IMG/VR virus record: IMGVR_UViG_3300042691_016139
Coordinates: 1 to 22,292 of that record
Reading direction: 5' to 3' (one strand)
Source of the DNA: a virus
Length of the DNA: 22,292 nt
This document shows positions 2 through 22,077 of the stretch, in pieces (within the stretch, counting starts at the first letter, position 1; each line of letters begins with the position of its first letter). The notes under the pieces were generated by a model. It saw only the letters and a program-made list of their open reading frames with translations. It did no database searches and was not told where the DNA came from. A program made the position numbers and the translations under genes.

Positions 2-2044
2 ACATACTATCAAACATATTATATGACTAATTGTGATGGTGTAAGTCCTGACGGTATTATGTCATTACCTGATACCTATGATAGTTGGGCAGTTGTTACT
101 GATATATATAACCAATGTTATTTAGTTAATTACCCTATAGAAGGTAGTGCTAATTTAATTTGGAATGGTGGTGATTATGGTAGTGATGAAACTTCTTGTA
201 CAACTTGTATGTCAAGTCAGGTAACACCTACTCCAACACCAAGTTATGGATTTTCTTGTGACCCACCACCAACACCAACCCCGACATCAACAATATGTGT
301 CACTGAACCATATTATTGTCCACCACCGGCACCCGCAAATTGTGAGATGTCTGTTAGTAGTTGTTATACAATTTTAACTTATAAAATTATAGATATTTGT
401 GGTACACAAATTACTCTTGATAGACCAACACCTGATTTCTCAATGTTTGATGATTGTTGTTACGCAAGAACAATAGTTTACCCACCAACTATGACTTCAT
501 TATATGATAGTGTTACACCAACACCTCATTGGAAAGATGATGTTATTAATTTCGAATCTGTATGTGATACAGACCAATTTGACGTTAAAGTTTGGAATAT
601 GAACATTCCTTGGAGTGAAGACCCTGCAGGAACATTTGTAGGTACCTTATTTGATTATACTCACTTTGGCTCAACATCGTATATAGGAGCTAAAGAATAT
701 TTTGGTTATATGTCAGATAGTGGTCAAACAGACACTAGTTTAGTTTTCTATTACAATTCTTTTGGTGACGTAATTAAAGTTGAACCTAAAGAACAAAAAG
801 CTATTGCAATCATTCATTACACAAATCAAAGTATTGATTTCTTTTATGGTGAGAAGTTTGCATTAGAACCATTTGTTGATGGTTCAACCGGTGAAGCAAG
901 AAACTTTAGAATCCACATTCCAACATTAATGTGGCATAAAAACCCTGAATGTTGTTATGGACAAACTTTTTATGTTGACCCGCCAGGTTTTGAAGACGCT
1001 GATTTTGATTTATTCCAAGTTTGTTACCTACAATCAAAGAAAAATTCTGATATGAATAATCCGGGGTTAAGATATTACCATTTATGGGATACAAATCCAA
1101 ACCCAAATAATTTAGGTAAACCAAATAGAATTGGTAAAGTTTTCCCTGATGACCAAATTATTATTATAGATGATGAAGAAATCATTGCTGCAATGTCTTA
1201 CAAATCAAATAGAAATTGGACATTACCGGCACCAAGAATTGGTTTAACAACACCAAATACTTGTGGTTCAAATGGTGAAACATCTACAGGGTTATTATCA
1301 GATTCTACTGAATACCTATACGTTACTTATAGATTTACAAATGAGAATTCATTTACTAATTCATTACATTGTAACTATTATACTAAAATTCAAGGACCGG
1401 ATATTTTTTGTAATCAAGAATTAAGTCAAAACGTATCTGTTAGATTTGGTGGTGATTTCCCTTGTTTGAATCAAATACCTGAATTACCAATTAACCCTGT
1501 TTCTTGTGACTTAGTTTCCGGATTCTTTGGTGAAAAATTAGAACTTATCTGTCAAAGAGTTACAGGTGACACAAGACCTGAATCTTCTGAATGGAGAGTT
1601 ATTGATGTAACATCTCAAATTAGTGGTGATAGTATTAACGATTATATCACTCAAAGTGGTCTTACAGGCAATACTTTTGTAATTAGTGAATTAGATTATG
1701 AAAACGCACCTTATTATAATTTGAATGACCCACTTTATAATGACTTAAATTTACCTCTTAGTGGTAGTACCGGTACAACATTAAATTTTGGTGACGAATA
1801 TTACTTCTATGGTTCTATTGAAACTGACATTCAAGCAACAATTTATGAGATGAGATATAAGATAAATCTTGGTCAAGCTGAGTTCTTAGCATCATCAAAT
1901 CCTTCTTGGTCAGTTAACACACCATCATATATTTCTGAAATTGGTCTTTACGATAACGAAATGAATCTTATGATTGTATCAAAGCTACAATCTCCTGTAC
2001 AAAGACAGGGTATTCAACAGTTTTTGGTAAAATTTGATTTTTAA
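2..2044 (+). CDS. modular phage virion/tail protein with Thr-Pro linkers, 5' end outside window
   Basis: Probable tail or capsid-surface structural protein. The frame is open without a stop to the left edge. An ATG lies at 23, but the residues before it (TYYQTYY) fit the domain that follows, so the true start is probably upstream. From the ATG the protein has 673 residues. Residues 1-65 form a Cys-bracketed module (YYM-NC near the start, later CY, ending CTTC). Thr-Pro/Pro-rich linkers follow (about residues 67-110, then VTPTPHW near 165), and then about 500 residues of beta-rich sequence that I do not recognise. The C-terminus (SEIGLYDNEMNLMIVSKLQS to LVKFDF) resembles the ends of other phage structural proteins that I recall only generally. 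The same Cys module occurs in the 288-residue minus-strand protein. The resolvase gene starts 3 bp after its stop, so the two are probably co-transcribed. Function is inferred; fibre or decoration protein are both possible. Confidence 0.7.
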   Translation, partial: TYYQTYYMTNCDGVSPDGIMSLPDTYDSWAVVTDIYNQCYLVNYPIEGSANLIWNGGDYGSDETSCTTCMSSQVTPTPTPSYGFSCDPPPTPTPTSTICVTEPYYCPPPAPANCEMSVSSCYTILTYKIIDICGTQITLDRPTPDFSMFDDCCYARTIVYPPTMTSLYDSVTPTPHWKDDVINFESVCDTDQFDVKVWNMNIPWSEDPAGTFVGTLFDYTHFGSTSYIGAKEYFGYMSDSGQTDTSLVFYYNSFGDVIKVEPKEQKAIAIIHYTNQSIDFFYGEKFALEPFVDGSTGEARNFRIHIPTLMWHKNPECCYGQTFYVDPPGFEDADFDLFQVCYLQSKKNSDMNNPGLRYYHLWDTNPNPNNLGKPNRIGKVFPDDQIIIIDDEEIIAAMSYKSNRNWTLPAPRIGLTTPNTCGSNGETSTGLLSDSTEYLYVTYRFTNENSFTNSLHCNYYTKIQGPDIFCNQELSQNVSVRFGGDFPCLNQIPELPINPVSCDLVSGFFGEKLELICQRVTGDTRPESSEWRVIDVTSQISGDSINDYITQSGLTGNTFVISELDYENAPYYNLNDPLYNDLNLPLSGSTGTTLNFGDEYYFYGSIETDIQATIYEMRYKINLGQAEFLASSNPSWSVNTPSYISEIGLYDNEMNLMIVSKLQSPVQRQGIQQFLVKFDF
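224..291 (+). repeat. Thr-Pro linker microrepeat (ACNCCN) in the left-edge virion protein
   Basis: A short run of ACA/ACT-CCN codon pairs encodes TPTPTP, then a Pro/Thr run (PPPTPTPTST) separated by a Cys-containing stretch. It joins the N-terminal Cys-bracketed module to the rest of the protein. The six-base unit keeps the frame when gained or lost. Longer versions occur in the two genes that end the opposing operon. Confidence 0.75.
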
Positions 2045-2675: not shown

Positions 2676-3542
2676 TTATGGTATTACAACAGAAATACAA
2701 CTTTGACCTGTTTGTGTTATTGTTCCTGTATTATCAATATAAATAGTATTGTAAATACCACCACCAGTAAAAGATGCTGAATAAGAATACCATCCGGGTG
2801 TTGTAACTAAAATTTGATTTGTATAAACTTGAGAACCAACCGATGGATTATTATTACTAAAAGTGGTAAAACCTAACCCTGCAACACCATTTTGATTACC
2901 GGCAATACACGCTAATGTATCTGAGGCATAAGGACCTAATAAGACAAAAGTTGTTGGTTGTGGTGGTTCTGTATATCTTAAACAATCTACACAATTATTA
3001 AAAGGTGAAGTAGGTGCACCAGGGTTTATTAATGTAAAAAAGTTTCCGGTATAATTTGTAACATTAGTACCGGGAGGAAATGTTGGAAATGTACCGGTAA
3101 CATACAAGAATTCTGAACAAAAATATAAAATTCCTATTGGGAATCCATAATCTACACCATACCTAAATACTTTATTTGGTATAATTGTAAATCCCGGTTG
3201 TGTTTGAACAACATATTGTGGTGGATTTGAATTACATAACCTATAAACGTAATATTGTTGAGGTAATGTTGGTGTTGGTGTAGGAGTCATTGTAGGTGTT
3301 ATTGTAGGTGTAGGTGTAATGGTAGGTGTAGGTGTTGGTGTTTGATTAGCAATCACCAATGTACAGGTTGTATCAAATTCCGGAAAATATAAACTATAAG
3401 TCCCATAATAATAATCCGCATTATAATCATACGGTAATACGTGAGAACCTAAATTAATAGTTCCTCCCGTATCAGGGTAATAAGTTATTACCGCGGTTTG
3501 TCCATCGTAATTATCTGTAGTTATTTGTATTGTTGTTGGCAT
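2676..3542 (-). CDS. modular tail/fibre-type protein, last gene of the tail operon
   Basis: 288 residues in three modules. Residues 1-65 form a compact beta domain (NYDGQTAVITYYPDTGGTIN then YYYGTYSLYFP). Residues 68-94 are an almost pure Thr-Pro linker. Residues 96-195 form a Cys-bracketed module (QQYYVYRLCN ... FNNCVDCLRYTEPPQP) like the N-terminus of the plus-strand virion protein at the left edge. Residues 196-288 form a C-terminal beta domain (SDTLAC ... VYTNQILVTTPGWYS ... TGTITQTGQSC) resembling the end of the upstream 984-residue protein. No signal peptide or membrane segment is seen. It is the last gene of the minus-strand operon, 12 bp after the SprB-repeat gene. Position and modular beta build suggest a virion surface or receptor-contacting protein; this is inferred and the protein is not recognised by name. 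Confidence 0.75.
   Translation of the reverse strand: MPTTIQITTDNYDGQTAVITYYPDTGGTINLGSHVLPYDYNADYYYGTYSLYFPEFDTTCTLVIANQTPTPTPTITPTPTITPTMTPTPTPTLPQQYYVYRLCNSNPPQYVVQTQPGFTIIPNKVFRYGVDYGFPIGILYFCSEFLYVTGTFPTFPPGTNVTNYTGNFFTLINPGAPTSPFNNCVDCLRYTEPPQPTTFVLLGPYASDTLACIAGNQNGVAGLGFTTFSNNNPSVGSQVYTNQILVTTPGWYSYSASFTGGGIYNTIYIDNTGTITQTGQSCISVVIP
3261..3341 (-). repeat. Thr-Pro linker microrepeat in the 288-residue protein
   Basis: About 81 bp of alternating ACN-CCN codons (on the minus strand) encode residues 68-94, mostly (TP)n with single Ile or Met substitutions. It separates the N-terminal beta domain from the Cys-bracketed module. Gain or loss of 6-bp units would change linker length without a frameshift. 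Confidence 0.85.
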
Positions 3543-3554
3543 ATATTTTAATTA

Positions 3555-6509
3555 TTATAAACAAATTGCTATTAGACCACCAATGTATCCATTAATATCT
3601 ACGGTTGCACTAACACCATTATTTGGGTCTGTTTGAATTTTTATTCTCCAATAATTACCATCACCCGGAAATGGATTAGTTCCCGCATTATCTAAAAATA
3701 TTCTATCACCTGTACCTACAAATCCAACCGATGTTGTTTGGATATACACAACTTCAGTTAACGATAAAGGACAAGCATCAACAGGGTCAGAGGTTAATGA
3801 CATTAATGACAATTTTAGATTAGGTTGTGTTGGTGTAGGTGTAACCGTATTTGTTGGTGTAACTGTAGGTGTAACAGTATTTGTTGGTGTTATAGTTGGT
3901 GTAACGGTAGGTGTTGGTGTTTGTGATGGTGGAATTACTAGTACAACACAAACATTGTCAACATATATAGTACCATCGGTTCCATCACCACAAGCATCCC
4001 AAGCTGAAATTGCAAAACTATTATTTCCGGTACAAGTTAATGTTAAATTAATTTGTCCTCCGGACTGTATTAATGAAGATTCACTAGTTCCCGCAAAAAC
4101 TTTAACATAAGCATATTCAGTACAAGGAGCATTATAATATAATGTAAAACTAATATTATATGTTTCTCCAACAGTTAATATATTTTGATAAATTGAATTA
4201 TTAAAATTATCTGTACCCGCAAAATTAGCACTACCCCCATAATTAGAACTCCAAGCCCATTCATTACCTCCAAATTGTAACCATCCGTTTAAGTTATTAT
4301 CAAATGTTGGATTAGTGATTAAATTACCCGTACAAAAATCTGTTGGTGGTTGTGTATAATCAATATCACAAGAAAGATTACATTTCTCACAAGAAATAAA
4401 GTATTCAATTCTCAATCTTACAATAACATTTGTATTAAATAACGATTCCGGGTCACAATTAGTGTAAATTGTAATTGTATTACCAACGTAATCAATAATT
4501 ACATCACCAATGTTTGGATAACCTTGAAGTATTGATTTAACAAATTCTAACCATTGATTGTCAGATGGATAATCTGTTAAACTATTTGACGAATAAAATG
4601 GTAAAGAAATAGTATCATCACCAACAGTAACTTGGGCAATAAATGTTGCGGAATCTAACACACAATTATAATCGTCAGAAATTGAATCGAAGTACCCTTC
4701 AATATACATCTGTTTAATACCTTTTTTAATATTTCCACCATCAGCAAAAATATCATCACAAATAGTATATGATTGATATGAAGAAACTTTATCATAACCA
4801 TTAATTGTCACAGTTCTTTGTTTCACACATCCATTGATATCTGTAACTGTTAAAGTATAATCACCATCGTTTAATCCTGATATATTTGGAGTTGTTTGAC
4901 CATTACTCCACAAATACGTAAATGGTGGTGTCCCACTTGTTATATATGTTTGAATACTTCCATTAGAACCTGTTGTTGCATCGTTTTTATTTAAGTAGAA
5001 ATCAACCGATTCTGAAGAATCTATCATAAATGGTAAACTTTGAGTACAATTACTACTAGTATCCAATACTGTTGCCGTATAACTTCCGGTTGGTAAATTA
5101 TTGAACGTTACGCTATTATTTGAACTGCTAATTGGTTGTTTTGTTGTTATAGTATAAATAAACGGTCCAACGCCTCCATTAGTTTGTAAAGTTACCGAAC
5201 CATTTGACCCATTACAAGTTGTTCCTACAGGTGTTACTGTAAAATCATATAAAACGGTATTATTTATAGTATAATCATTTGTAAAGACACAAGTACCACC
5301 CGAAATACTTAGAGTATATGTACCCGAAGATAACCCATCAAACGACCAATTAGTACTATTTACAGTAACAGAATCAGTTGTAACACCATCAGGGTATGTT
5401 AATGTATAGGTATAAGGTTGACTTGGACCAAAAATATTTATAGGATTTAACGCTCCACTAAAATTATTACACGTTGAATTTTGTATTCCAATATCCACGA
5501 TTGAAAACCCTTGAGGTATCATTAACGATGTTGTTCCATTAGCGGTACATAATGCAGCATCAGTAATTAAAACTGAAAATAAACCTGACCCAAGATTATT
5601 AAATGTAAATTCAGTATCATAAGTTACTATAGTATATCCATTCGACCCTGAGTAATAAAAAGGTAGTGTTCCACCTGAAGTATATACTGTTACGGAACCA
5701 TTATTTACAAAACAATCAGGATTTACTGAAGTAAAAGATACAACACCTATTTGAGGTACATCTAAAACATTAACACTTTTCGTTATAACACATCCTGAAC
5801 TATCAGTTACCTGAACAGAATAATTACCTGAAGGTAAATCGGTTATAAAATCATTTGTTGAATTATCCTGCCATAAATACGTGTATGGTGGATTACCCGT
5901 TAATCCTGTAATATATAACTTACCTGTATTTCCCGTACAACCCGCATCATTAACAACAAAAAACCCAAAGTCCATTTGTGTTGATGTTTTGACAATACAA
6001 GTTTCTGATTTACCTGTACATCCACCACCATCATTGGCTATAACATAATAAGTACCCGCTGATAAACTATCAAAAAAGTAAGTATTTGTAAAACTTTCTC
6101 CACTCGTAATATATCCTAAGGTATTATGATATAAATAAAATTCCGCGTTACCATTGTAAACATTCTGTGTTGAAGCCGTTAAAGAACCGTTCTCAAAATT
6201 ACAAGTAGTATCTTGAGTACTTGTTATACTAACACAAGTACCTGTTGATATATAAACGTTAATCGGAAATATTGTACTATCAGGGGAACAAGTGTCAATA
6301 ACATTAAATGTATAAGTACCCCCCGATAATCCGGTTTCAGTATAACTCGTAACACCAGCACCTAAAGCAATTGTTCCAAGTGAGGCAGGCTCAATCCATT
6401 GTATAGTATAATCAGGAGCACTACCCGCAATCTCAACATTAATTGCACCAATACTACTATTGGTACAATCCCCTGTAAAACTTTTTACTACATTCAAAAA
6501 ACAACTCAT
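3555..6509 (-). CDS. SprB-repeat modular tail protein with carbohydrate-binding-like domain
   Basis: 984 residues. Residues 1-573 hold about seven SprB-like repeats of roughly 80 residues (starts near 1, 90, 177, 253, 334, 418, 498). Each has a Cys, GS(I/V)..., PPYTYLW or similar, an L..G.Y...VTD turn and a closing C. The last repeat (PPFTYLWSNGQ ... GDYTLTVTDINGC) is the closest to the family, known from flavobacterial gliding adhesin SprB and other secreted Bacteroidota proteins. Residues 620-709 repeat the C-terminal domain of the upstream I-like protein. Residues 728-857 (NPTFDNNLNGW ... IYVDNVCV) look like a galactose-binding/CBM-type jelly roll. Residues 860-895 are a Thr-Pro linker, and 896-984 a C-terminal beta domain. 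No signal peptide, which fits assembly on a virion rather than secretion. The ATG overlaps the upstream stop by 4 bp (ATGA). Likely role: tail tip or fibre contacting the host surface (inferred). Confidence 0.8.
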   Translation of the reverse strand: MSCFLNVVKSFTGDCTNSSIGAINVEIAGSAPDYTIQWIEPASLGTIALGAGVTSYTETGLSGGTYTFNVIDTCSPDSTIFPINVYISTGTCVSITSTQDTTCNFENGSLTASTQNVYNGNAEFYLYHNTLGYITSGESFTNTYFFDSLSAGTYYVIANDGGGCTGKSETCIVKTSTQMDFGFFVVNDAGCTGNTGKLYITGLTGNPPYTYLWQDNSTNDFITDLPSGNYSVQVTDSSGCVITKSVNVLDVPQIGVVSFTSVNPDCFVNNGSVTVYTSGGTLPFYYSGSNGYTIVTYDTEFTFNNLGSGLFSVLITDAALCTANGTTSLMIPQGFSIVDIGIQNSTCNNFSGALNPINIFGPSQPYTYTLTYPDGVTTDSVTVNSTNWSFDGLSSGTYTLSISGGTCVFTNDYTINNTVLYDFTVTPVGTTCNGSNGSVTLQTNGGVGPFIYTITTKQPISSSNNSVTFNNLPTGSYTATVLDTSSNCTQSLPFMIDSSESVDFYLNKNDATTGSNGSIQTYITSGTPPFTYLWSNGQTTPNISGLNDGDYTLTVTDINGCVKQRTVTINGYDKVSSYQSYTICDDIFADGGNIKKGIKQMYIEGYFDSISDDYNCVLDSATFIAQVTVGDDTISLPFYSSNSLTDYPSDNQWLEFVKSILQGYPNIGDVIIDYVGNTITIYTNCDPESLFNTNVIVRLRIEYFISCEKCNLSCDIDYTQPPTDFCTGNLITNPTFDNNLNGWLQFGGNEWAWSSNYGGSANFAGTDNFNNSIYQNILTVGETYNISFTLYYNAPCTEYAYVKVFAGTSESSLIQSGGQINLTLTCTGNNSFAISAWDACGDGTDGTIYVDNVCVVLVIPPSQTPTPTVTPTITPTNTVTPTVTPTNTVTPTPTQPNLKLSLMSLTSDPVDACPLSLTEVVYIQTTSVGFVGTGDRIFLDNAGTNPFPGDGNYWRIKIQTDPNNGVSATVDINGYIGGLIAICL
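3823..3925 (-). repeat. Thr-Pro/Val linker microrepeat in the SprB-repeat protein
   Basis: About 100 bp encode a TPTPTVTPTITPTNTVTPT-type linker (residues about 860-895). The segment encoding TPTNTVTPT occurs twice in tandem, nearly identical at the base level. It separates the CBM-like domain from the C-terminal domain. Confidence 0.8.
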
Positions 6510-11653: not shown

Positions 11654-12508
11654 TTAAGGGTTTATATATTCATACCATTTTATGGGACTACCTATCCCTA
11701 CTCTCGAACCTTGCCAATCAAAAATTTGATACGTATAAGTTGGATAATCTAACACTACTTTATAATAATAATATCTTTCAGGTGTAAATTGAAAAGGATT
11801 ATTAGAGTTAATTGATATTTGAGGGTCAGTAGTCATTTTAACAAAAACCCCTAATCTAGCATCAAAAAATTTTGCTGACATATAAAAGGTTTCGGTTGTA
11901 TTACCCGGATTTGGATTTATATTCAAAAAATCTTTTTTTCTTAACCAATACAAGAAAAACCCTTCTTTATCCCCAACATAATCAAGTGTGAAATCAGGTG
12001 TTCTTATATCAACATTTGGTTTATATGGTGATAATGTAACATTTTGAGTTGCTCCTTGTTGAACAGGGATAATAACTGTAAAATAATTAGTTTGTGTTAT
12101 TGCACTATTTGAATCATAAAAATCCAACTTAAAAAATGATTTAGTGAATGGTTTAACATAATAATAAACCTCTTTAACATTAAACCCTTCCGGAATATAA
12201 CTACATATCCAATCAGAAGGTGTTGATGTAGTTACATTTAATGTTGGATTTGGTGGTACTAGACCATTTACACTAAAAAAATGAAATTTATACTTAATAT
12301 CCGTTTTAGTATCACTACTATATGGTGCGTGAGCAAAACGTAATATTTCAAAATCTTCCTTATTACCGGTTAATTCATTAATTACCTCATCCTCATATAC
12401 ACTAATACTATCATCTCTACCATAAAAATCCCATTTCAATTCAATTGGTAAATCAATGAATTGGTCATTTTTTGGTAATATAAATTTATATTTATTCACA
12501 GTTATCAA
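11654..12508 (-). CDS. unknown baseplate-cluster structural protein, non-ATG start
   Basis: 284 residues, not recognised. It is beta-rich and aromatic-rich, with a notable segment EGFFLYWLRKKDFLNI followed by FYMSAKFFDARLGVFVKM near residues 190-225. There is no membrane segment or signal peptide. The frame has no ATG anywhere near its beginning. The best starts are TTG at 12508 (17-bp overlap with the upstream gene) or GTG at 12499 (8-bp overlap, just before the upstream TAA). The first in-frame Met is deep inside the conserved-looking part. All other genes here start with ATG, so this one is probably coupled to translation of the 607-residue gene. Its neighbours imply a baseplate or tail structural role. 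Confidence 0.65.
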   Translation of the reverse strand: MITVNKYKFILPKNDQFIDLPIELKWDFYGRDDSISVYEDEVINELTGNKEDFEILRFAHAPYSSDTKTDIKYKFHFFSVNGLVPPNPTLNVTTSTPSDWICSYIPEGFNVKEVYYYVKPFTKSFFKLDFYDSNSAITQTNYFTVIIPVQQGATQNVTLSPYKPNVDIRTPDFTLDYVGDKEGFFLYWLRKKDFLNINPNPGNTTETFYMSAKFFDARLGVFVKMTTDPQISINSNNPFQFTPERYYYYKVVLDYPTYTYQIFDWQGSRVGIGSPIKWYEYINP

Positions 12509-14315
12509 CTATTGGTGATGCCGAACCATAAAGGTTTGCATAATAATTTATGTCACTTTCTATATAATTAGTACCTTCAGGTATAATTCTAAAAGTATAA
12601 CTTTCATAAGGGTAATGAGTATCATTAAAAAACGGATAATTAACCCCATTACCTTGATTATCTATAAAACCATAGGTGTAGATATCCCTCCAACGAAATT
12701 CGTTGTCTGCGGTTGAAAAATACGAATAATCAGGAACCCCAACAACTTCTTTAGGTGTCCCTCTCTCAACATAATCAGAAAAATCCCTAATTTTAATACT
12801 ATAATGTGGTTTATAATAAAAACCAAGAGGATTATCTTGTAATAAACTATTCGATGAAATAACATTAAAAACATTCGGATTATACGTTAATTTGTGATAA
12901 ATTTCAGAAATAACCCTTTCTTTTTGTTCGTAATCATTCCATTCACAAAAATCACCATCTAAGGTGTCTCCGGACATAAATGAATTAATATACATAAAAT
13001 CATAAGTTATTGCCGGTGTTGGTTGTGTTCTACTATATATAGTATACGGAAAATTTGTATTTGATAAATTATTAGATAAATCCCACCACGGAGATGGTGT
13101 TGGTATTGAACCACTTTCATCTAAAGGTAAATTAAACTCATAACCTTGTTTTAACCCAACATATGATATTAAATCACTAGGGTTAAGTTGACCAAACATC
13201 CATCCAAAATAACCCTTATATAAAACCGTAAAAAATAATTTATTAACGGGTCTTTTTTGATTATCTAACATTTTATTAACGTCAAAATCTTTGTTAAATG
13301 ATAATGTATAAGATTGAGCCCCTTCCCTTATTGAAACTCTCGCCTCTCTATTTGGTGTATAACCACTACTTTCATATTTTTTCTTAGTACCAAAAATATT
13401 TTGTTCAAAACCAGCTTTAACTAAAACAGCATCATCCGTGTTACTAATTATTTTATGTTTTCTAACATAATATGATGATAATGTTTCTACCGGATTATCT
13501 ATGTTTATTATTCTTCTAAATGTTCCCGTAGTATTATTATTAAATGTTGACCCAGTAAAACCAATATTAACAATATTAAACGTATATGGTTTGGTAGCAT
13601 CAATTCCGGTACCTAAAGAAAACACTTGATAAGTGTCTGTTCCATTATATGAAAAATTTAATTTTACATATTCACCAACCATTAAATTATGTTTAACAGG
13701 ACATCTAAATGATATCAACCCTAAACCACCAATTGTTGATGAATATAAAACAAACGGAATCCCATCAGATGCAACCCATTGAAGTGTTTGATTCGTAATT
13801 GAATCTATCGCTTGCAAACTTTTAGTATAATCATTTTCAAACGGATAACTTAAAAAATAATTCCAATTATATGTTGAGGCACTTTTATTAACAAATTGAA
13901 TATGTTCATTAGGTGGTTGAGTATACCCCGAAAAATTATAATCAGTTCTGATAAAATCAAATTCATTATATTGAGGAAATCCTGACCAAGAAACATTAGA
14001 ATCTGTTGGACAATTTAATTCTGCCGCAGCATTTTCATTAACATATGATAACACTTTTTCAAATCTTTCATAGTTTGAATATCCTGTATATGCGTTTTTG
14101 AATAAAACTGAAAATTTACAAGTCGGTCTAAAGTTAGTTGATTGTTGTCGTTCTCTATCATATAGTTCAGATAAATTAATATCTAAACTTCTATCAAATT
14201 CAACGTTTTCTTTTGAAGTTTGTACAAACGGAACATTAAGACCTATATCAACATTTGATGCTGATTTATATCTTAAAGACCCTAAAACTATTCTTAAGTC
14301 ATTACTATTACCCAT
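12492..14315 (-). CDS. unknown baseplate-cluster structural protein, 607 aa
   Basis: 607 residues, not recognised. The N-terminus (MGNSNDLRIVLGSLRYKSAS) has no signal peptide, and no membrane helix is evident. The body is aromatic- and Asn-rich beta sequence. A segment near 205-225 (ISFRCPVKHNLMVGEYVKLN) reads like a small beta-barrel, and one near 320-345 (SIREGAQSYTLSFNKDFDVN) precedes a charged stretch. It starts 1 bp after the stop of the 1779-residue gene and overlaps the next gene by 8 or 17 bp depending on that gene's start. High aromatic content and lack of catalytic motifs fit a large structural subunit of the baseplate periphery; this is inference from context. Confidence 0.65.
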   Translation of the reverse strand: MGNSNDLRIVLGSLRYKSASNVDIGLNVPFVQTSKENVEFDRSLDINLSELYDRERQQSTNFRPTCKFSVLFKNAYTGYSNYERFEKVLSYVNENAAAELNCPTDSNVSWSGFPQYNEFDFIRTDYNFSGYTQPPNEHIQFVNKSASTYNWNYFLSYPFENDYTKSLQAIDSITNQTLQWVASDGIPFVLYSSTIGGLGLISFRCPVKHNLMVGEYVKLNFSYNGTDTYQVFSLGTGIDATKPYTFNIVNIGFTGSTFNNNTTGTFRRIINIDNPVETLSSYYVRKHKIISNTDDAVLVKAGFEQNIFGTKKKYESSGYTPNREARVSIREGAQSYTLSFNKDFDVNKMLDNQKRPVNKLFFTVLYKGYFGWMFGQLNPSDLISYVGLKQGYEFNLPLDESGSIPTPSPWWDLSNNLSNTNFPYTIYSRTQPTPAITYDFMYINSFMSGDTLDGDFCEWNDYEQKERVISEIYHKLTYNPNVFNVISSNSLLQDNPLGFYYKPHYSIKIRDFSDYVERGTPKEVVGVPDYSYFSTADNEFRWRDIYTYGFIDNQGNGVNYPFFNDTHYPYESYTFRIIPEGTNYIESDINYYANLYGSASPIVDNCE

Positions 14316-14316
14316 C

Positions 14317-17300
14317 TTAATCTACAACTGTTTCAGTGTTTATCCATTTTTGTACAAATCTATCATAAGATGATTTACCTTTTTTCAACCCAAAAAAGAA
14401 ATGGAACGGTGCACCAACCATTGGTTGGTTTGGATTATAAAAATATTGTATTTGAGGGTTTATATTACCATTACCGTCAACTGCGTATATATAACCTTTG
14501 AAATTTTTAACAGGTTGTCCCAATTGTGCACCCATAAAATAATTACTATTAGTGTCTAATCTATCCAAAGATTGATATGGTGAAGATAAATAAGAAGGTT
14601 GATTTGTATACCAATTATTACCTTGAGCTCCAAAAATACTAGGTCCCGAACCATTACCATTAACTCTACCCGGACCACTTTGGTTTATTGTCCATTGATA
14701 AAATGGTACAACTTGACTATAAACTCCGAAGTTATTAAACGCACATATATTACTCATATTTACCGTATCATCAATAATAGTTCTCTTTGGTGTTATATAA
14801 TCTCTAACCTGAGTATTAGATGAAAAGAAAATACCAATAATTGCATTACTTGTACTAGCACCATTAAAATAGATTGATGGTTGTAAACCTGAAGACGGTG
14901 GTGGGTCCGGATAATTAATTGTGTCAAATTCCGCAATACCTAATTCTGAACTAATTGAAATCATTTGAGGATAATCAGCATCTGATTTAAGATTTGGTCT
15001 AACACCAAAATATTTACCAATAATATTTTCACCAATAACCAAACTAATTAAACTATCTAAAAATGATTTATTAATCATTCTACTAATAATATGTAAGTTC
15101 AATATATCCGAAACATCATTAAATGTTGTTGGTACTAATTTATCCATAACATAACCATCATAAATGTCTGACATAACTATTTCTTGTAAATAATATGTTC
15201 TTGGCCCTAAATCCATCATTGTTGTAGGGTATTTCAAATTCTTATCATTCTCAACAAAATAATCACTTAATAACCCACCAAAAAATCCACCCGGTGATGC
15301 CGGATTAGAACCAATAAATTCACTTGTACTAAATTTATAAGGACTAGACCTATAATAAAAGTTTTTTGTTGGAGTATGAAAAATAATAGGTGTCTTACAA
15401 TGGTTAGATTGAGCGTTATTATTATTATCATAAAAAGTTGATGTCTTAAATGGAAATGAAAATAATGTACCGTTAATCCAATTATTTGAAAAATTATCCG
15501 ACCAAGTATTTCTACAAGCAGCAAAATTTATATTTAATCTTGATTGCCATTCTGGTTGAACCTTAAATAAATCAGATAATAACGATAGTAATGGTATTGT
15601 AACAAATCTATAACAACCATTAGCAAAAATTCTCTCACCTCTACCAAATAAATTAAACGCACATCTATCTCGAGATACTGTTAGAACATCCGGATTTGAA
15701 TTACTGTAACCATAACAATCTAAATTAACCGACTTTTGACAAGTAAAACTTTCAATTAACTCATTTGGTACTGAACCTGAATAAGAAGCCGCATCAATAG
15801 CATTATTTGCTCCACCACCTGTTTGTGTCTGATTTGACGATGATGATACACCAACATCAAAAACACCTCCAACACTACTCATAGTGTCCATAAAAAAATT
15901 ACCATTAGCAAATAATGGAAAACTAAATGTAGTACTACATTTATTCCATTCAACACAGGTTGAGGTTGGTAATCTATCCGACCTCATAATAATTTGTCTA
16001 CCACTAGTACCCAAACCAAAAGACATAGGGGTTTCACCATAACTTGGTGATTTATAAAATGACTGTATACTAAAAGTATATCTCATATCAGTTGGGGTAA
16101 ATGGAGGTACTAATAAATTATTATTATGGGGAACATATGGTCTTCGTATATCATTTTTATTAGTATTTATTATTAAAATGTCACCACCTTCAACTACTTC
16201 ATTCGGAAAATAACCTCTAGTAACACCTGTATATGATGGTGCTAATGGTGTGTTATTTGATGTCGTTCCCGTAATACTATTTTGAGTATATTCAAAATAA
16301 TCACAACCAAGTATTGGTGATATTGGCGTTAGAATTGATTCAGATTTACCCCATTCATTAATAAGGTCATTTTGACTATCAACCTTCAGTCCTATTAATG
16401 ATGAGTCAGAACCTGACCCAACATTATTATTATAACTATTACATCCATTACCATTAATAGATAGCGACCCATTATCTAATGAAGAATATAATTTTGGTAA
16501 AATACTATTGAACGGTTTGAATAATGTAGAATCCGGTTTATACGTATAAGAATTATAATATAATTTTGGATTTAACGTTGCATAACTATCGGTACCAGTG
16601 TTTGTTGATATGTTATGTCTTGTATTTAAGAAACCTCCTTGAATTGGTATATTCAAATGAAACTTTGGGTCCCCTGAAAGTGGACCTCCAATTTGAACTG
16701 AATCTTCATTTGTATATCCAAATAATCGACCTAAACCAAATTTAACATTAACTTTAGGTGAATATGGGTCAACACCTCTAACTAAAAATACAACAACTAA
16801 ATCATTGTAATCTTTAATTTTGGTTATTGGGTTTATATAGGTTGGGTTATTATATGTAAAACCATCATTTGTAAATGTTGGATATTGACAATATAAAAAG
16901 TTTTGGGCTATATTAAGACGATTAAAACGAATATTATTAGATAAATAACGGTCATTAAATGAGTTTGGTAATTGTGACACACATTGATTTGTATAAGCAC
17001 TATATGTCATTCCCGTTATGACTTGGAAATATTCAATATCAATCGGGAATTTATGGTAATCGGTTGACGCTGCAATATTTAATCCGGTATAATTAGTTGT
17101 GTTATTACCTGAACCATCAAATTTTGCATAATTAACACTAAATGAATTTAACGCAGATGTTGTTCCGGTAATCGCAAAATTACCAAATTGATTTTCTGTT
17201 GCTCCTGTATCAGATACGTACATATCAACATTAATATCTGCCGACGCTCTTGTATCACCTGTTAATATAGGATTTTGGAAAGTAATTAAAGTACCAGGTA

Positions 17301-19656
17301 AAATTTTATTTAACGATTGTTTTGTACATAAAACCGCAACAACATTATCAAAGTGATGGTCAGTATTATTTGGATTAAAATTAACTTTCACTCTATTAAC
17401 ACCTCCACCCGGATTAGGTAATATCGGGTTTGTTTGGTCAAAATATTTAGCTTTGGTATTAAACAAATTCATTCTTGCCGCAAAAGTTAAACTTGTTGTA
17501 AAATTTATGTAAGGCGCATTATCAGGATATCTCATACTCTGAGCCGCATTTATTCTATTATCATTTATTGCCGGAGGAGTAGATATTATGGGTTCACCGG
17601 CTAAAATTGATGTAATTATTGTTTTGTAATCATCACTTCCACCAATTAAATCTTCATCATAAGTATTTAGACTTGCCAATTTAATTAATTTTACACTACC
17701 ACTACCAATACATTGACCATTTTGTTCTTGTGTTTCATCTTCAATTTCTAGTTCATCCTGAGCCAAATTTGCCACACCAGAGTTATTAGTACCACCTGTT
17801 TCAAGGTCACAGTCACACATAGAACAATCCGGATATAATATTAAAGGTAACCTCATTGGTGTACATAATGGTACTACATATTCATCCCATAAATAAAGTA
17901 ATCCAAATAAAATACCTGAAACTAAAAAAAACGTCGCTGAGATTTTTAACTGAGCCGGTGTAAATGTAGGTCCAGTTGGACTACTTCCTATAGAGGCAAG
18001 CGCCGCTTGAACTCCTAAAATAAAAAAGTAAGTTGCTAATAAGAATAAAAGAACTCTAATTAATTGAACAACGGTATATACTATATGTAATATAATAATT
18101 AAAATCCACACAACGGACCTAATAACCACTGACAATAAATTAAATAATGTATAAATAATATCAAACCTAAAGTTAGCGTCATTAACCGGAAATTTATAAT
18201 TTTCCGTATTACAATCATCTTGAGCTACCGCTTTAATACCGACAAAATTATCCGGAAATAATCCACCTCTAAATTTGTCAATCATTTGAGATACCGTATA
18301 AACTTTATTGTATTGCATCAAATAAAATCTATCCTCACAATCAATAGCTTCTTGAATCATATGTTGACCCAACGCTGTAGTATCACCATAATCATCCCAA
18401 TCTAAACTAAACGCATATGATTTTAAGGCATATTGATAACCAATACCCCCATTTGTTGGGTCAATATTCGAGGATGACCATCCATATTCTTTAATATTTG
18501 GGACTAAATAATATCCACGTCTAAGTTCTTCAGATAATGATGGTGATTGACCCCATTTAACCTTAAATCTATATTTACCTTTAGTTGGTACACCTTTTTT
18601 TGGGTCATCAGAAATAACTAATTCACCAAATTCATTGGTTATTAAATAATCTAAGTTCATTGGTACATCAATTAACCAAGCACCATTATCATCAATAACA
18701 ACACCACCCATTTCTAAGTCAAATAACTCTAATGTTGGTCTACCCATAGGGTCTTCTTGAATAGTCTGTCTAATCGCTAATATTTCCCCCGGACCAACAG
18801 TTAAATTACATAAACTACCTAATTTCCATTTAGGGTTACAATTTGTTCTTAAAGGAGCACCATCAATACTTGATATTAACGACCCCATAAAAATTGCTGT
18901 AGGTGTTAAGTTGATGTTTGATTCATTACTTAAATCAAAATCTGTTCTACAAATACCTAAATTACATACTTCCGATTGACCCCACAATGGCTCTACAACA
19001 ACAGTTCTTGTTAAATTAACAATTTGTGGTAATTCTCTTAAATTTGTTGAACTTTTGAATTTAGTACCATTAACCTGAGCTTGTGTTGCAATACCCATTC
19101 TAACTAAATCTTGTGGTGATAATGAAAATTCACCAATGTCTGATAAATCAACATCAACTGAAATAGTGTGAGTTCCAACCGGAACACCAAATATCATAAA
19201 ATCCCCACTATCATTAGTCACAGCATTATACTTATAATACTTGTCATAAACTTCAATAAGGGTAGGATTAGTTAAAACATCAGTTCGATTAAAAAAAGTA
19301 CCTGTAGGTGTGTGATTACTATATGACGGTTCATATGGTAATAGATTATATCTATAACCATCATCATTAACATCAGTTATAGATTTATAAGGGTATATTT
19401 CTGAAATAACGGGATTTAAGCTATCTTCGTCTGTTAACGGAACAAATATCGATACTTTAACATTTGGTAAACCAAAACCATTGTTAACACTAATACGACC
19501 AATGATAACACCATAATCTGAGCAAACTCTTGTGTATATTTCACTTTGTAATACTTTAAGTGATAATATCTCAAGATACTCAAATTCTTGGTTAATTGAA
19601 ACGTTAATTGACTTGTTAATACCTAAGTCCGTTCTTATTCTATATGAATTTGGCAT
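14317..19656 (-). CDS. giant baseplate-operon protein with internal membrane helices
   Basis: 1779 residues, the largest gene here, in the place after gp6/J where large wedge proteins such as T4 gp7 occur. The N-terminus (MPNSYRIRTDLGINKSINVS) has no signal peptide. Residues about 48-170 look like a carboxypeptidase-regulatory-type beta domain (VIIGRISVNNGFGLPNVKVS, then NDSGDFMIFGVPVGTHTISV), a fold frequent in Bacteroidota surface proteins. A second similar stretch lies near 313-367 (IDDNGAWLIDVP). Residues 498-556 are a long hydrophobic block (about two membrane helices, 514-533 and 535-556), with a third at 573-591 (FFLVSGILFGLLYLW). A Cys cluster follows (C598, C611, C614, C616), then an acidic Gln-rich linker (about 640-660) and about 1100 residues of Asn/Ser-rich beta sequence that I do not recognise. 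ATG start after a 71-bp gap. Virion location is inferred. It may insert into the host membrane during DNA entry, but could also be a membrane-tethered assembly protein. Confidence 0.7.
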   Translation of the reverse strand: MPNSYRIRTDLGINKSINVSINQEFEYLEILSLKVLQSEIYTRVCSDYGVIIGRISVNNGFGLPNVKVSIFVPLTDEDSLNPVISEIYPYKSITDVNDDGYRYNLLPYEPSYSNHTPTGTFFNRTDVLTNPTLIEVYDKYYKYNAVTNDSGDFMIFGVPVGTHTISVDVDLSDIGEFSLSPQDLVRMGIATQAQVNGTKFKSSTNLRELPQIVNLTRTVVVEPLWGQSEVCNLGICRTDFDLSNESNINLTPTAIFMGSLISSIDGAPLRTNCNPKWKLGSLCNLTVGPGEILAIRQTIQEDPMGRPTLELFDLEMGGVVIDDNGAWLIDVPMNLDYLITNEFGELVISDDPKKGVPTKGKYRFKVKWGQSPSLSEELRRGYYLVPNIKEYGWSSSNIDPTNGGIGYQYALKSYAFSLDWDDYGDTTALGQHMIQEAIDCEDRFYLMQYNKVYTVSQMIDKFRGGLFPDNFVGIKAVAQDDCNTENYKFPVNDANFRFDIIYTLFNLLSVVIRSVVWILIIILHIVYTVVQLIRVLLFLLATYFFILGVQAALASIGSSPTGPTFTPAQLKISATFFLVSGILFGLLYLWDEYVVPLCTPMRLPLILYPDCSMCDCDLETGGTNNSGVANLAQDELEIEDETQEQNGQCIGSGSVKLIKLASLNTYDEDLIGGSDDYKTIITSILAGEPIISTPPAINDNRINAAQSMRYPDNAPYINFTTSLTFAARMNLFNTKAKYFDQTNPILPNPGGGVNRVKVNFNPNNTDHHFDNVVAVLCTKQSLNKILPGTLITFQNPILTGDTRASADINVDMYVSDTGATENQFGNFAITGTTSALNSFSVNYAKFDGSGNNTTNYTGLNIAASTDYHKFPIDIEYFQVITGMTYSAYTNQCVSQLPNSFNDRYLSNNIRFNRLNIAQNFLYCQYPTFTNDGFTYNNPTYINPITKIKDYNDLVVVFLVRGVDPYSPKVNVKFGLGRLFGYTNEDSVQIGGPLSGDPKFHLNIPIQGGFLNTRHNISTNTGTDSYATLNPKLYYNSYTYKPDSTLFKPFNSILPKLYSSLDNGSLSINGNGCNSYNNNVGSGSDSSLIGLKVDSQNDLINEWGKSESILTPISPILGCDYFEYTQNSITGTTSNNTPLAPSYTGVTRGYFPNEVVEGGDILIINTNKNDIRRPYVPHNNNLLVPPFTPTDMRYTFSIQSFYKSPSYGETPMSFGLGTSGRQIIMRSDRLPTSTCVEWNKCSTTFSFPLFANGNFFMDTMSSVGGVFDVGVSSSSNQTQTGGGANNAIDAASYSGSVPNELIESFTCQKSVNLDCYGYSNSNPDVLTVSRDRCAFNLFGRGERIFANGCYRFVTIPLLSLLSDLFKVQPEWQSRLNINFAACRNTWSDNFSNNWINGTLFSFPFKTSTFYDNNNNAQSNHCKTPIIFHTPTKNFYYRSSPYKFSTSEFIGSNPASPGGFFGGLLSDYFVENDKNLKYPTTMMDLGPRTYYLQEIVMSDIYDGYVMDKLVPTTFNDVSDILNLHIISRMINKSFLDSLISLVIGENIIGKYFGVRPNLKSDADYPQMISISSELGIAEFDTINYPDPPPSSGLQPSIYFNGASTSNAIIGIFFSSNTQVRDYITPKRTIIDDTVNMSNICAFNNFGVYSQVVPFYQWTINQSGPGRVNGNGSGPSIFGAQGNNWYTNQPSYLSSPYQSLDRLDTNSNYFMGAQLGQPVKNFKGYIYAVDGNGNINPQIQYFYNPNQPMVGAPFHFFFGLKKGKSSYDRFVQKWINTETVVD

Positions 19657-19665
19657 AATATTCTT

Positions 19666-19698
19666 TTTTGATAAATAGTTTATTTACTATTTTCAAAA
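19666..19698. other. imperfect hairpin in the 71-bp gap between gp6-like and 1779-aa genes
   Basis: TTTTGATAAATAG pairs with CTATTTTCAAAA (12 bp with one bulged T) around an 8-base loop. On the minus strand it is followed by an A-run rather than a T-run, so it is not a standard terminator. It sits about 10 bases upstream of the next ATG and could be an mRNA processing or stability element, or modulate translation. The gap is otherwise AT-only sequence with no convincing Bacteroidota promoter. Confidence 0.4.
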
Positions 19699-19727
19699 GA
19701 TAATTCATTATTAAAATAAATAAATTA

Positions 19728-21566
19728 TTATGTGAAGTTAACTGTTTTAAGATTTTTAACTCTAATGTTAATATCTTTACCCGGATATCTAACTTGATAA
19801 ACCTGACTTGGTTCCGCAAAAATAGTATCATCAACTAATTCTATCTGTCTAGTATCAGAATCTGAGTATCTTTGTGATGTTTGAGAAGAGGAATATTCAC
19901 CACCCACTTTATTAAAAAATAAAATATCTGACAATGAAATAACACCATTTTCACTTTGAATTAAACGTCTTAAATCCGACACATTTACATTTTCACCCAT
20001 TTGTCTATTAGTTGGGTCGAAGAATGTTGTAATAAGGTTAATAACTTGTGAAATTACAGTACCTTGGTTTTGACTATTATCTAATACAATATCAACATTA
20101 ACACCTAAATCAATAACACTTGCAGTTTCAATTGAAACATAGTCATTAATCATTCTATAATTTGAAAGGTAATTTGCTACGTTATTTTTTAACGTATTTG
20201 AAACAACATTAGTTAATTTACCATTTTCATCGTATGACAACATTTGTACTTTAATCTTATTGTTTTCTTCTGTAATAGCAACTTTAGCCGGAGCACCAAA
20301 TTGTGATGGCATTGTTCTAATAATCGAATCGTAATCATTAACGGTCACGGCTCTTTGTTGTGCAGAGAAATTAAACGCCACTAAGTTTCTAACCTCTTCA
20401 GTTGTTGGGTAGTTTGCTCCACCGATAGCCGCTGTTACGTTAGTACACGATAATGAGTTAATTACACTTGTATTTTGACTTTGACTTGGTCCGTTAACAA
20501 AGAATGAAACGGTACCAACTTGAGTGATTGCGTTAACACCTAAATTACTTCCAGTACCACCACCAATTCTATATTGAACGAATAATGTTGTGTTTGCCTT
20601 TAAGGCACTACCTAAAGCTAAGTTATTTGAGTATTTGTATAAATTTAAGTTATAACCATCTCTTGCAAATTCTCTTAATTGTTCGTCAGCAGATTGATTA
20701 CCACCCCCAAATGTCATTTTCATAAACCCTTCCGGAGTAAATTCTGTAATGAATTTATTACTTGTCTCAATATACGTCCCTACCTTAATACCGGGTTGGT
20801 CTGATACTTTAGTTGGGTCTTCAATAAAGACTCTACTGTCCGCTAAAGCATTAACTTCATACCATCTGTTATCTAATCCTAAGAACTCTTGTACTGAAGG
20901 AACATTAGAATATTGAGTACTATCTTTTAATAACACACTAGTTACCCCTAAAACATTTTTTTCAGGTAAGAAAACTTCTAAAAACGGTCTAACATCATTT
21001 GCTGTCACCACTTTTTTGAATACTTTAGTAATACCATTAACAACAGTTTCTCGTTTAATAATGGTATAATTGATTAGTTTGTTATTACCATCAAAATTAG
21101 GTATTTTTAATCTATTAGGGAATCCCTCAGCCCCAATTGGTGATGAAAAGTCGATATCATATACTGTTTCAAAGATTTGACCGGCACCACTAACTTGTGA
21201 CCCTCTACGTAAGATACCACAATATCTTAAATCCTCCTTATCACCATAAGCAGGTACCGTAATAGCAAAATCAATTAAAGCAACTGATGGTCTTTGTCCC
21301 GGAACTTTTAATCCGTATGTTCTTGCAATGTTAAAGATTGACGACCTTTGTTGTGCGTATTGTAATACAGTCTCTTGGATACTTCTATCAATGTTAAACT
21401 GTATGTTGTCGGTAACCGCAGCATTTAAGTCCAATAACACAGAGAATACCCCCGCATCATTGAAGTTATCTATTAACTCAGGATAATAAGTTCTTGTGAA
21501 ATTTATTAACTCAGTTCTTATTGATTGAAAGTCTCTCGTAGTATACGATATTTTCTTATTAGCCAT
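19728..21566 (-). CDS. baseplate wedge protein, T4 gp6 / P2 gpJ-like
   Basis: 612 residues, close to T4 gp6 (660). The N-terminus (YTTRDFQSIRTELINFTRTY, then GVFSVLLDLNAAVTDNIQFN) is typical of gp6-like proteins of T4-related phages. The central segment has the baseplate J-like signature: a GG-rich turn region (TEEVRNLVAFNFSAQQRAVT, then VNDYDSIIRTMP) followed by a V.I.....KV beta strand. The C-terminal third (NLITTFFDPTNRQMGENVNV, then LRRLIQSENGVISL) fits the J C-terminal domain. gp6/J forms the ring of dimers that clamps the wedges around the tail hub. It begins 4 bp after the gp25-like gene, preserving the W-J order of P2-type and T4-like tails. ATG start, no Shine-Dalgarno. Confident on family; host range and ring symmetry cannot be read from sequence. 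Confidence 0.9.
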   Translation of the reverse strand: MANKKISYTTRDFQSIRTELINFTRTYYPELIDNFNDAGVFSVLLDLNAAVTDNIQFNIDRSIQETVLQYAQQRSSIFNIARTYGLKVPGQRPSVALIDFAITVPAYGDKEDLRYCGILRRGSQVSGAGQIFETVYDIDFSSPIGAEGFPNRLKIPNFDGNNKLINYTIIKRETVVNGITKVFKKVVTANDVRPFLEVFLPEKNVLGVTSVLLKDSTQYSNVPSVQEFLGLDNRWYEVNALADSRVFIEDPTKVSDQPGIKVGTYIETSNKFITEFTPEGFMKMTFGGGNQSADEQLREFARDGYNLNLYKYSNNLALGSALKANTTLFVQYRIGGGTGSNLGVNAITQVGTVSFFVNGPSQSQNTSVINSLSCTNVTAAIGGANYPTTEEVRNLVAFNFSAQQRAVTVNDYDSIIRTMPSQFGAPAKVAITEENNKIKVQMLSYDENGKLTNVVSNTLKNNVANYLSNYRMINDYVSIETASVIDLGVNVDIVLDNSQNQGTVISQVINLITTFFDPTNRQMGENVNVSDLRRLIQSENGVISLSDILFFNKVGGEYSSSQTSQRYSDSDTRQIELVDDTIFAEPSQVYQVRYPGKDINIRVKNLKTVNFT

Positions 21567-21570
21567 AATA

Positions 21571-22026
21571 TTAAATGTTAATTATTACAAAGTCGCTAGC
21601 GTTAAAAACATCATCACTAATAGTGTATTCAATTTTAACCTTTGCGGTATGTTCTTTAAGCCCGATTCCGGGTACTCTATAAATTCTTTCATCACCTTCA
21701 ACATAAGTACCTTTGTCTTCTTCCCCCGTATCAGCGGAAGTTACACTTATATTAGTGATTGTTATGTTTGGGATATAATCTTCAACAGACGCTCTAATTT
21801 CAGCCTCAATCTCAGAAAACGTTGGTCCGTCCATTGGTTCAAATATAAATTCATACAATCTTGTACCAAAATCAGGTAAATAATATCTCGTACCCTTTCT
21901 TGTTAATAAAAGGTGTATTAAATCAGTTCTTATCTCCTGAGCCGCGTTATCTGAAAGACTTAAATATTTCCCTTCACGAGAATCGTTAAAAGGAAAATTT
22001 ATTCCATATGTTCTACCATCTGCCAT
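21571..22026 (-). CDS. baseplate wedge protein, gp25/GPW (lysozyme-related fold) family
   Basis: 151 residues from the ATG at 22026, which matches the family length (T4 gp25, 132). A TTG at 22071 would add 15 residues, but these are poorly matched, and that start would nearly abut the terminator. Family hallmarks are present: IRTDLIHLLLTRKGTRYYLP (32-51) followed by PDFGTRLYEFIFEP (PDFG at 51-54, FEP at 62-64), then an alternating charged helix (SEIEAEIRASVEDYIP) and the beta strand ITITNISVTSAD. gp25 sits at the wedge-sheath junction and triggers sheath contraction; the same family occurs in P2 gpW, T6SS TssE and contractile injection systems. It is the first gene of the baseplate operon, 4 bp before gp6/J. 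An insertion near 95-115 (EEDKGTYVEGDE) is acidic and longer than usual. Confidence 0.9.
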   Translation of the reverse strand: MADGRTYGINFPFNDSREGKYLSLSDNAAQEIRTDLIHLLLTRKGTRYYLPDFGTRLYEFIFEPMDGPTFSEIEAEIRASVEDYIPNITITNISVTSADTGEEDKGTYVEGDERIYRVPGIGLKEHTAKVKIEYTISDDVFNASDFVIINI

Positions 22027-22077
22027 AACTATAAATATAGTGTCGTCATTATTTTTTATAAATACCCCCAAAATAAA

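Follow-up and report, generated by a model that had tools for sequence, protein, structure and literature searches.

The window, that is, the whole 22,292-nucleotide stretch of IMG/VR virus record IMGVR_UViG_3300042691_016139 analyzed here, is a 22-kb virus fragment in which an intact open reading frame (ORF) encodes a protein of 1779 residues (the giant protein) containing a strongly hydrophobic block of 94 residues. The giant gene follows adjoining homologs of the wedge proteins gp25 and gp6 (Baseplate_J), as in the baseplate module of a contractile tail, and is itself followed by a gene for a 607-residue protein that has no PHROG or Pfam match and belongs to no known family (Table 1). The order gp25, gp6, giant gene, 607-residue protein gene is retained in distant relatives; gp6 stands immediately upstream of the giant gene, or one gene further, in most loci, and synteny with the 607-residue protein gene is kept in most loci whose ends permit checking. 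Placed by this gene order, the giant protein may be a physical part of the baseplate. Searches with the full-length protein against Pfam, PHROGs, and the sequences of solved structures returned nothing usable, and no relative was found among the last of these.

Table 1. Features of the giant baseplate-operon protein, its locus, and the corresponding slot in related loci. Positions without a locus prefix are those of the window.
Feature	Position	Strand	Basis or remark
gp25-like baseplate wedge protein	21571..22071	-	opens conserved module; PHROG 261, 5.2e-18; Pfam GPW_gp25, 5.6e-12
gp6/Baseplate_J wedge protein	19728..21566	-	PHROG 219, 1.1e-24; Pfam PF04865, 4.5e-7, above its cut-off
Short gap, gp6 to giant gene	19657..19727	.	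empty in window
Giant baseplate-operon protein, 1779 residues	14317..19656	-	ORF and relatives
N-terminal core, residues 1–480	18217..19656	-	family-defining conservation
Transthyretin/CarboxypepD_reg-like β sandwich, residues 46–248	18913..19521	-	PF13620 weak; structural Z up to 6.8
C482, invariant cysteine immediately before block	18211..18213	-	41/41 relatives
Hydrophobic block, residues 498–591	17884..18165	-	hydropathy; AlphaFold2 helices; invariant H524
C611-x2-C614-x-C616 motif (YPDCxxCxC)	17809..17826	-	invariant, 41/41
Acidic, poorly conserved linker, residues 617–650	17707..17808	-	alignment of relatives
β-Rich region, residues 653–1100	16357..17700	-	best-predicted part of C-terminal model
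C-terminal region from FxNxW[IV]NGxL[YF] motif	14320..15492	-	conserved motif
607-residue protein, next gene of conserved module after giant gene	12492..14315	-	synteny
Small CxCK genes, examples	L101:2381-2647, L137:9637-9987, L126:9585-9986, ∼85 further loci		between gp6 and giant gene
Hydrolase-like slot gene	L002:8977-9915, L049:2679-3602, and relatives		between gp6 and giant gene; absent in window

The first-pass annotation had described about three strongly hydrophobic helices in this block, followed directly by C598, C611, C614, and C616 and then by an acidic linker. Membrane character was judged by hydropathy scales (Kyte-Doolittle, KD, and Eisenberg). Three hydrophobic peaks lie where described, with KD values of 1.69 at residue 498, 2.62 at residue 515 (VVWILIIILHIVYTVVQLI), and 1.95 at residue 572 (ISATFFLVSGILFGLLYLW); outside the block the giant protein never rises above 1.6, and the remaining genes of the window all stay at or below 1.53. 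The mean KD of the 94-residue block, 1.53, was reached in none of 5000 shuffles, and the lone 19-residue peak of 2.62 in 54 of 5000 (∼1%). AlphaFold2 predicts long helices at residues 500 to 554 and 567 to 598 (predicted local distance difference test, pLDDT, mostly 72–93) within an otherwise poor N-terminal model. The acidic stretch after the cysteines is likewise present.

Close relatives of the giant protein were collected from 80 loci, 41 of them nonredundant at 90%; members of the window's clade occur on contigs of up to 309 kb. The block occupies the same place in all 41, with most of its sequence unconserved. Helix 514 to 534 has a mean KD of 2.28 with a minimum of 1.91 among the relatives, and pairwise identity in the first two helices is 48 to 51%; the third helix (residues 535–555) keeps a mean KD of 1.87 despite 18% pairwise identity, and a fourth segment (residues 569–591) is hydrophobic in only part of the relatives. 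Preservation of hydropathy without preservation of sequence is the usual sign of a membrane segment, and one or more 19-residue segments of membrane hydropathy are retained across the homologs, as in helical membrane proteins. The expectation that the block and its four cysteines would be conserved together was borne out for C611, C614, and C616, invariant in 41 of 41 relatives along with C482 and H524; C598, although positioned as described, recurs in only 3 of 41. The corrected invariant set around the block is thus C482, C611, C614, and C616. The giant protein has 26 cysteines in total, so these residues are not restricted to the cluster, and C45, C231, C283, C440, C1306, C1314, C1348, and C1381 are also invariant among the 41 relatives.

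The wider family was defined by the N-terminal core, with seeds taken from contigs of bacterial metagenome-assembled genomes (MAGs), followed by scans of viral contigs. Family counts from these scans are lower bounds, and several loci represent one contig entered twice (e.g., L136 = L241). Among 93 diverse members (<80% identity in the core), the block is present in 72 and absent in 21; it always follows the core, with the W[IV]NGxL[YF] domain directly next or ∼700 residues later. A P[GDEN]C motif follows the block in 54 of the 72 block-bearing members versus none of the 21 block-less members, and the 240 residues from the block start contain a mean of 9.3 cysteines, as compared to 1.3 in block-less members. 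Overall, 91% of 219 family blocks fall inside the Eisenberg transmembrane region. The majority of block-less members form one group of ∼700-residue proteins, with L082, L185, and a rumen clade separate from it.

A second element emerges from the slot between gp6 and the giant gene. In a sister clade this slot holds a small gene (∼70–160 residues; 42 distinct sequences in the first set) encoding a protein with an invariant N-terminal cysteine pair (M-[GAS]-C-x-C-K or C-x-x-C), a single, strongly hydrophobic helix (KD up to 3.7), basic flanks, and often an acidic tail. Among 47 of these small-protein helices, 98% lie inside the Eisenberg transmembrane region. No convincing PHROG or Pfam match was found for this CxCK family; the only hits were single weak PHROG matches annotated "membrane protein" and "lysis inhibition" (E ∼0.05). 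In the window's clade the gp6-to-giant gap is ∼75 bp without the small gene. Detection of the small gene depended on its cysteine start; a position-free profile search recovered it where expected in three records of the sister clade (274–413 kb), and in three from the window's clade (215–309 kb) it gave no convincing match. The CxxCxC motif in cis and the small CxC gene are mostly either/or (28 have the motif alone, 21 the small gene alone, and 3 both). In part of the window's clade the slot is occupied by a gene for a protein of 303 to 313 residues with an N-terminal membrane segment and weak matches to α/β-hydrolases (lipase-like). A T-P motif that both helices contain in some members raised the possibility that the small protein had fused into the giant one; this was rejected because in both clades the block stands at the equivalent position, following the same P-x-N motif.

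The block of the giant protein and the helix of the small protein vary together. Across 88 distinct gene pairs, both are present in 81 and neither in 7, with no discordant pair; in the seven block-less pairs the small gene keeps its CxCK start, and its helix has fallen to KD 1.1 to 1.4. Three further block-less loci (two of them alike) have no small gene. Block-less members from the rumen group together in a single clade (99/88) of divergent lineages; as read from these sequences, block and helix were lost together once, rather than in many independent events, and have remained jointly absent as the lineages diverged. The first-pass annotation had held that the membrane interpretation would fall if homologs lacked the block with nothing else changed; such homologs do exist, but the loss is not isolated, because they are also without P-[GDEN]-C, and any small gene that they retain encodes no membrane helix. 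A different explanation of the small gene, that it encodes a holin or another lysis or superinfection-exclusion protein whose link to the block is a coincidence within one clade, would suit the abundance of single-helix membrane proteins in phage lysis and exclusion, the wording of the weak PHROG matches, and an association that goes back to one loss event. However, in block-less phages the small protein keeps its CxCK start but has lost its hydrophobic helix, a loss that a holin could not afford, and the slot between gp6 and the giant gene is fixed across highly diverged phages; this explanation is accordingly considered quite unlikely.

Taken together, these observations favor the block being a real membrane-inserting helical module of a baseplate-associated protein that tethers the baseplate to a membrane, a reading to which a probability of roughly 0.6 is assigned. 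The annotation had offered three functions, a membrane conduit on ejection, a stretched element released on contraction, and a membrane-anchored assembly scaffold; the last is the best supported, because the block co-varies with the helix of a neighboring small membrane protein. In the proposed mechanism, the block would form a hairpin or bundle of membrane helices, and C482 with C611, C614, and C616 would form one metal or disulfide site clamping both of its ends, so that the two would lie to one side of the membrane. The small CxCK protein, or the CxxCxC motif in cis in the window's clade, would complete this cysteine-closed membrane unit; the N-terminal core would bind the baseplate beside gp6, and, while tails are being assembled in the producing cell, the module would tether the baseplate to the cytoplasmic membrane.

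Several observations weigh against this reading. Hydropathy would look alike for a hairpin in a membrane and for a hydrophobic helical bundle enclosed within the virion, and both the membership of the giant protein in the virion and its contact with gp6 are deduced from gene order alone. Predicted membrane crossings range from one to four among relatives, L133 retains just one weak helix, and C482 is absent in much of the rumen group, so the four-cysteine site is not universal. The Fisher value for the 88 pairs is overstated because the co-loss is a single phylogenetic event, and among block-bearing pairs the hydropathies of giant and small proteins are uncorrelated (Spearman −0.03). AlphaFold2 confidence is also low outside the helices. 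Some of these points would suit a block that never enters a membrane and is instead a buried, soluble helical bundle at a baseplate oligomer interface shared with the CxCK protein: the hydrophobic segments vary in number and length, down to the single helix of L133, H524 is invariant in the window's clade, and an interface between the two proteins could account equally well for the block varying together with the small protein. Such a bundle is nevertheless judged unlikely, given hydropathy retained at 18% identity over residues 535 to 555, Eisenberg values in the membrane region, and a small protein built like a single-pass membrane protein, with basic flanks and a highly hydrophobic helix.

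Tethering specifically at assembly is put forward tentatively. The next most likely alternative, only slightly less probable, is that the block is shielded in the virion, released at infection, and inserted into the host envelope as a tail anchor or channel lining. Phage T5 provides a precedent: for its tape measure protein pb2, a stretch of 46 hydrophobic residues is proposed to make two transmembrane helices and to form a channel, and its hub protein pb3 anchors in the outer membrane; tail-tip proteins with hydrophobic segments thus enter the host membrane at infection (PMC10038345). The hydrophobic lengths in T5 and in the giant protein are similar. T5 differs in being a siphophage, in carrying the pb2 segments within a lumenal tape measure, and in inserting a β-hairpin tip of pb3 rather than helices (PMC10038345). 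Location of the giant gene in a baseplate module is also in keeping with a role at entry. However, one clade has lost the block and kept both protein and module, and the ∼700-residue class does without it, so the family does not require the block as a conduit; the flanking regions are predicted to be β-rich, unlike a lumenal tape measure, and a shielded ejection segment should not need a separately encoded small membrane protein. The conduit function offered earlier thus appears weakened, an essential DNA conduit being less likely where the module is lost while the protein stays. The stretched element found no support, because the modeled flanks are β-rich and some family members have the core but no block. 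When a strongly hydrophobic helix is synthesized in the cytosol, its insertion normally falls to the signal recognition particle (SRP) and the Sec machinery; for this reason, and because the module can be lost, a tether in the producing cell is slightly favored over insertion at entry.

Anchoring of contractile machines to membranes has been described in other systems. In a thylakoid-anchored contractile injection system, the baseplate-associated protein Cis13 has a putative transmembrane helix that anchors the contractile tail to the membrane, and removal of the helix frees the machine (PMC8894136). Cis13 differs in belonging to a nonphage system and in being tail-fiber-like with its helix in the C-terminal part, and the portion of that article drawn on here describes neither a cysteine motif nor a small membrane partner gene (PMC8894136). 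In the Bacteroidota type VI secretion system (T6SS) of subtype iii, which shares the presumed host phylum, the baseplate docks on a dedicated membrane complex, TssNQOPR; there docking is by separate membrane proteins (PMC10781749), whereas in the phage the block lies inside a baseplate-operon protein, and no sequence relation of TssNQOPR to the giant protein was found. CisA of Streptomyces contractile injection systems is a membrane adaptor thought to recruit the tail, much like the role proposed for the CxCK protein; the part of the source used describes nothing that ties CisA to a giant partner with a membrane block (PMC12237407). Cis13, TssN, and CisA would be comparable in working; no relation is found or claimed, and no direct comparison was made.

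The textbook view is of phage baseplates as soluble and assembled in the cytosol, with T6SS and thylakoid-anchored systems built on membranes; a membrane module with a co-varying small partner in a phage baseplate operon would join both views and would bear on where large phages assemble their tails or how the envelope is crossed. What is new here is the small single-helix CxCK membrane protein of the sister group and its co-variation with the block. A more specific proposal, considered possible though rather unlikely, is that a dedicated phage membrane complex, formed by the giant protein with its cysteine-clamped transmembrane hairpin and the single-pass CxCK partner, carries baseplate assembly; if true, this would be the phage counterpart of the T6SS membrane complex. 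To our knowledge, no T6SS-like membrane complex has been described for tailed phages.

The remainder of the giant protein resembles known folds weakly. Mean identity of the N-terminal core per 60-residue block is 55 to 83% among close relatives and 33 to 40% among distant ones. All 13 of 13 members match PF13620 (best 6.9e-5), under Pfam's curated cut-off, and the score of the window's core is 18.1 bits, where the cut-off lies at 32.3; structural comparison of residues 46 to 248 gave Z up to 6.8 over ∼80 to 100 residues, from a low-confidence model. The C-terminal part is predicted to be β-rich and is well modeled only at about residues 653 to 1100, a region for which no structural match was obtained. 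The FxNxW[IV]NGxL[YF] motif stands directly after the block (or the core) in distant relatives. Foldseek searches with both models, which are of low confidence, gave no match at E ≤ 1e-3, and with a second look using VIA no reliable match was seen for the C-terminal part; weak matches of the N-terminal part to pilins and pore-forming toxins were rejected as common β architectures at low confidence.

These models also bear on whether the giant protein could be the missing tape measure of these phages. Moraphages, jumbo phages of up to 307 kb from aquatic metagenomes with predicted Bacteroidota hosts, have no recognized tape measure gene (PMC12619734), and hydrophobic segments are frequent in tape measure proteins. 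However, the modeled parts outside the block are largely β rather than predominantly helical, at low to moderate confidence, part of the core is β-sandwich-like, length varies from ∼680 to 2627 residues across the family by insertion of whole domains, and the gene comes after gp6. As far as the models can be trusted, the giant protein is not a tape measure, an identity that would be very surprising. PHROG 7, which we take to be a tape measure family, gave no match in a profile search of five records and was not used. Moraphage core genes include gp25, gp6, and gp19 (PMC12619734); in habitat, size, and core genes, the moraphages are the described lineage that comes nearest to the present phages. 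Set beside one another by description only, the two are likely the same or neighboring lineages; the text of the moraphage paper does not contain the word "transmembrane" (PMC12619734).

The family occurs on at least hundreds of IMG/VR contigs, reaching ∼413 kb among relatives from the rumen. Across 50,697 phage records, the giant protein, its distant members, and two neighboring proteins had no tblastn match; gp6 alone matched, in Flavobacterium phage immuto, Microcystis phage Mel-JY01, and a 484-kb huge phage, and the N-terminal core is absent from the gp6-matching loci of all three. This large family, without a tblastn relative in those records, offers a natural comparison of phages with and without the module. 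In L174 and L173 (322 and 246 kb, ∼700-residue class), gp6 is present far from the family gene, which lies among other genes, so the core can exist outside the gp6-linked module. Where the giant gene is not beside gp6, cysteine-rich ORFs of 52 to 55 residues (MC[SG]xCC..Y[ST]PCPxGF) recur (L185:6739, L187:5414, L197:5472). Locus L083, filed under a Mycoplasmatota MAG, carries the phage module together with nrdD/nrdG-like genes and a DnaB-like gene that seems to contain an intein (from translations); it is probably phage DNA that was assigned to the wrong organism in binning.

The carriers are large phages of a widespread group that is uncultured, probably myophages infecting Bacteroidota. In the window, a 984-residue protein (positions 3555–6509, minus strand) contains SprB repeats (PF13573, 6.6e-11), along with weak matches of Hoc-like/Ig type. 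The SprB repeat is one of surface adhesins in Bacteroidota, and its occurrence here fits Bacteroidota hosts. PTPTPT-type proline-threonine repeats, probably fiber linkers, occur in this protein and in those encoded at positions 2 to 2044 (plus strand) and 2676 to 3542 (minus strand); a RuvC-like gene (2048–2647) lies amid the three genes.
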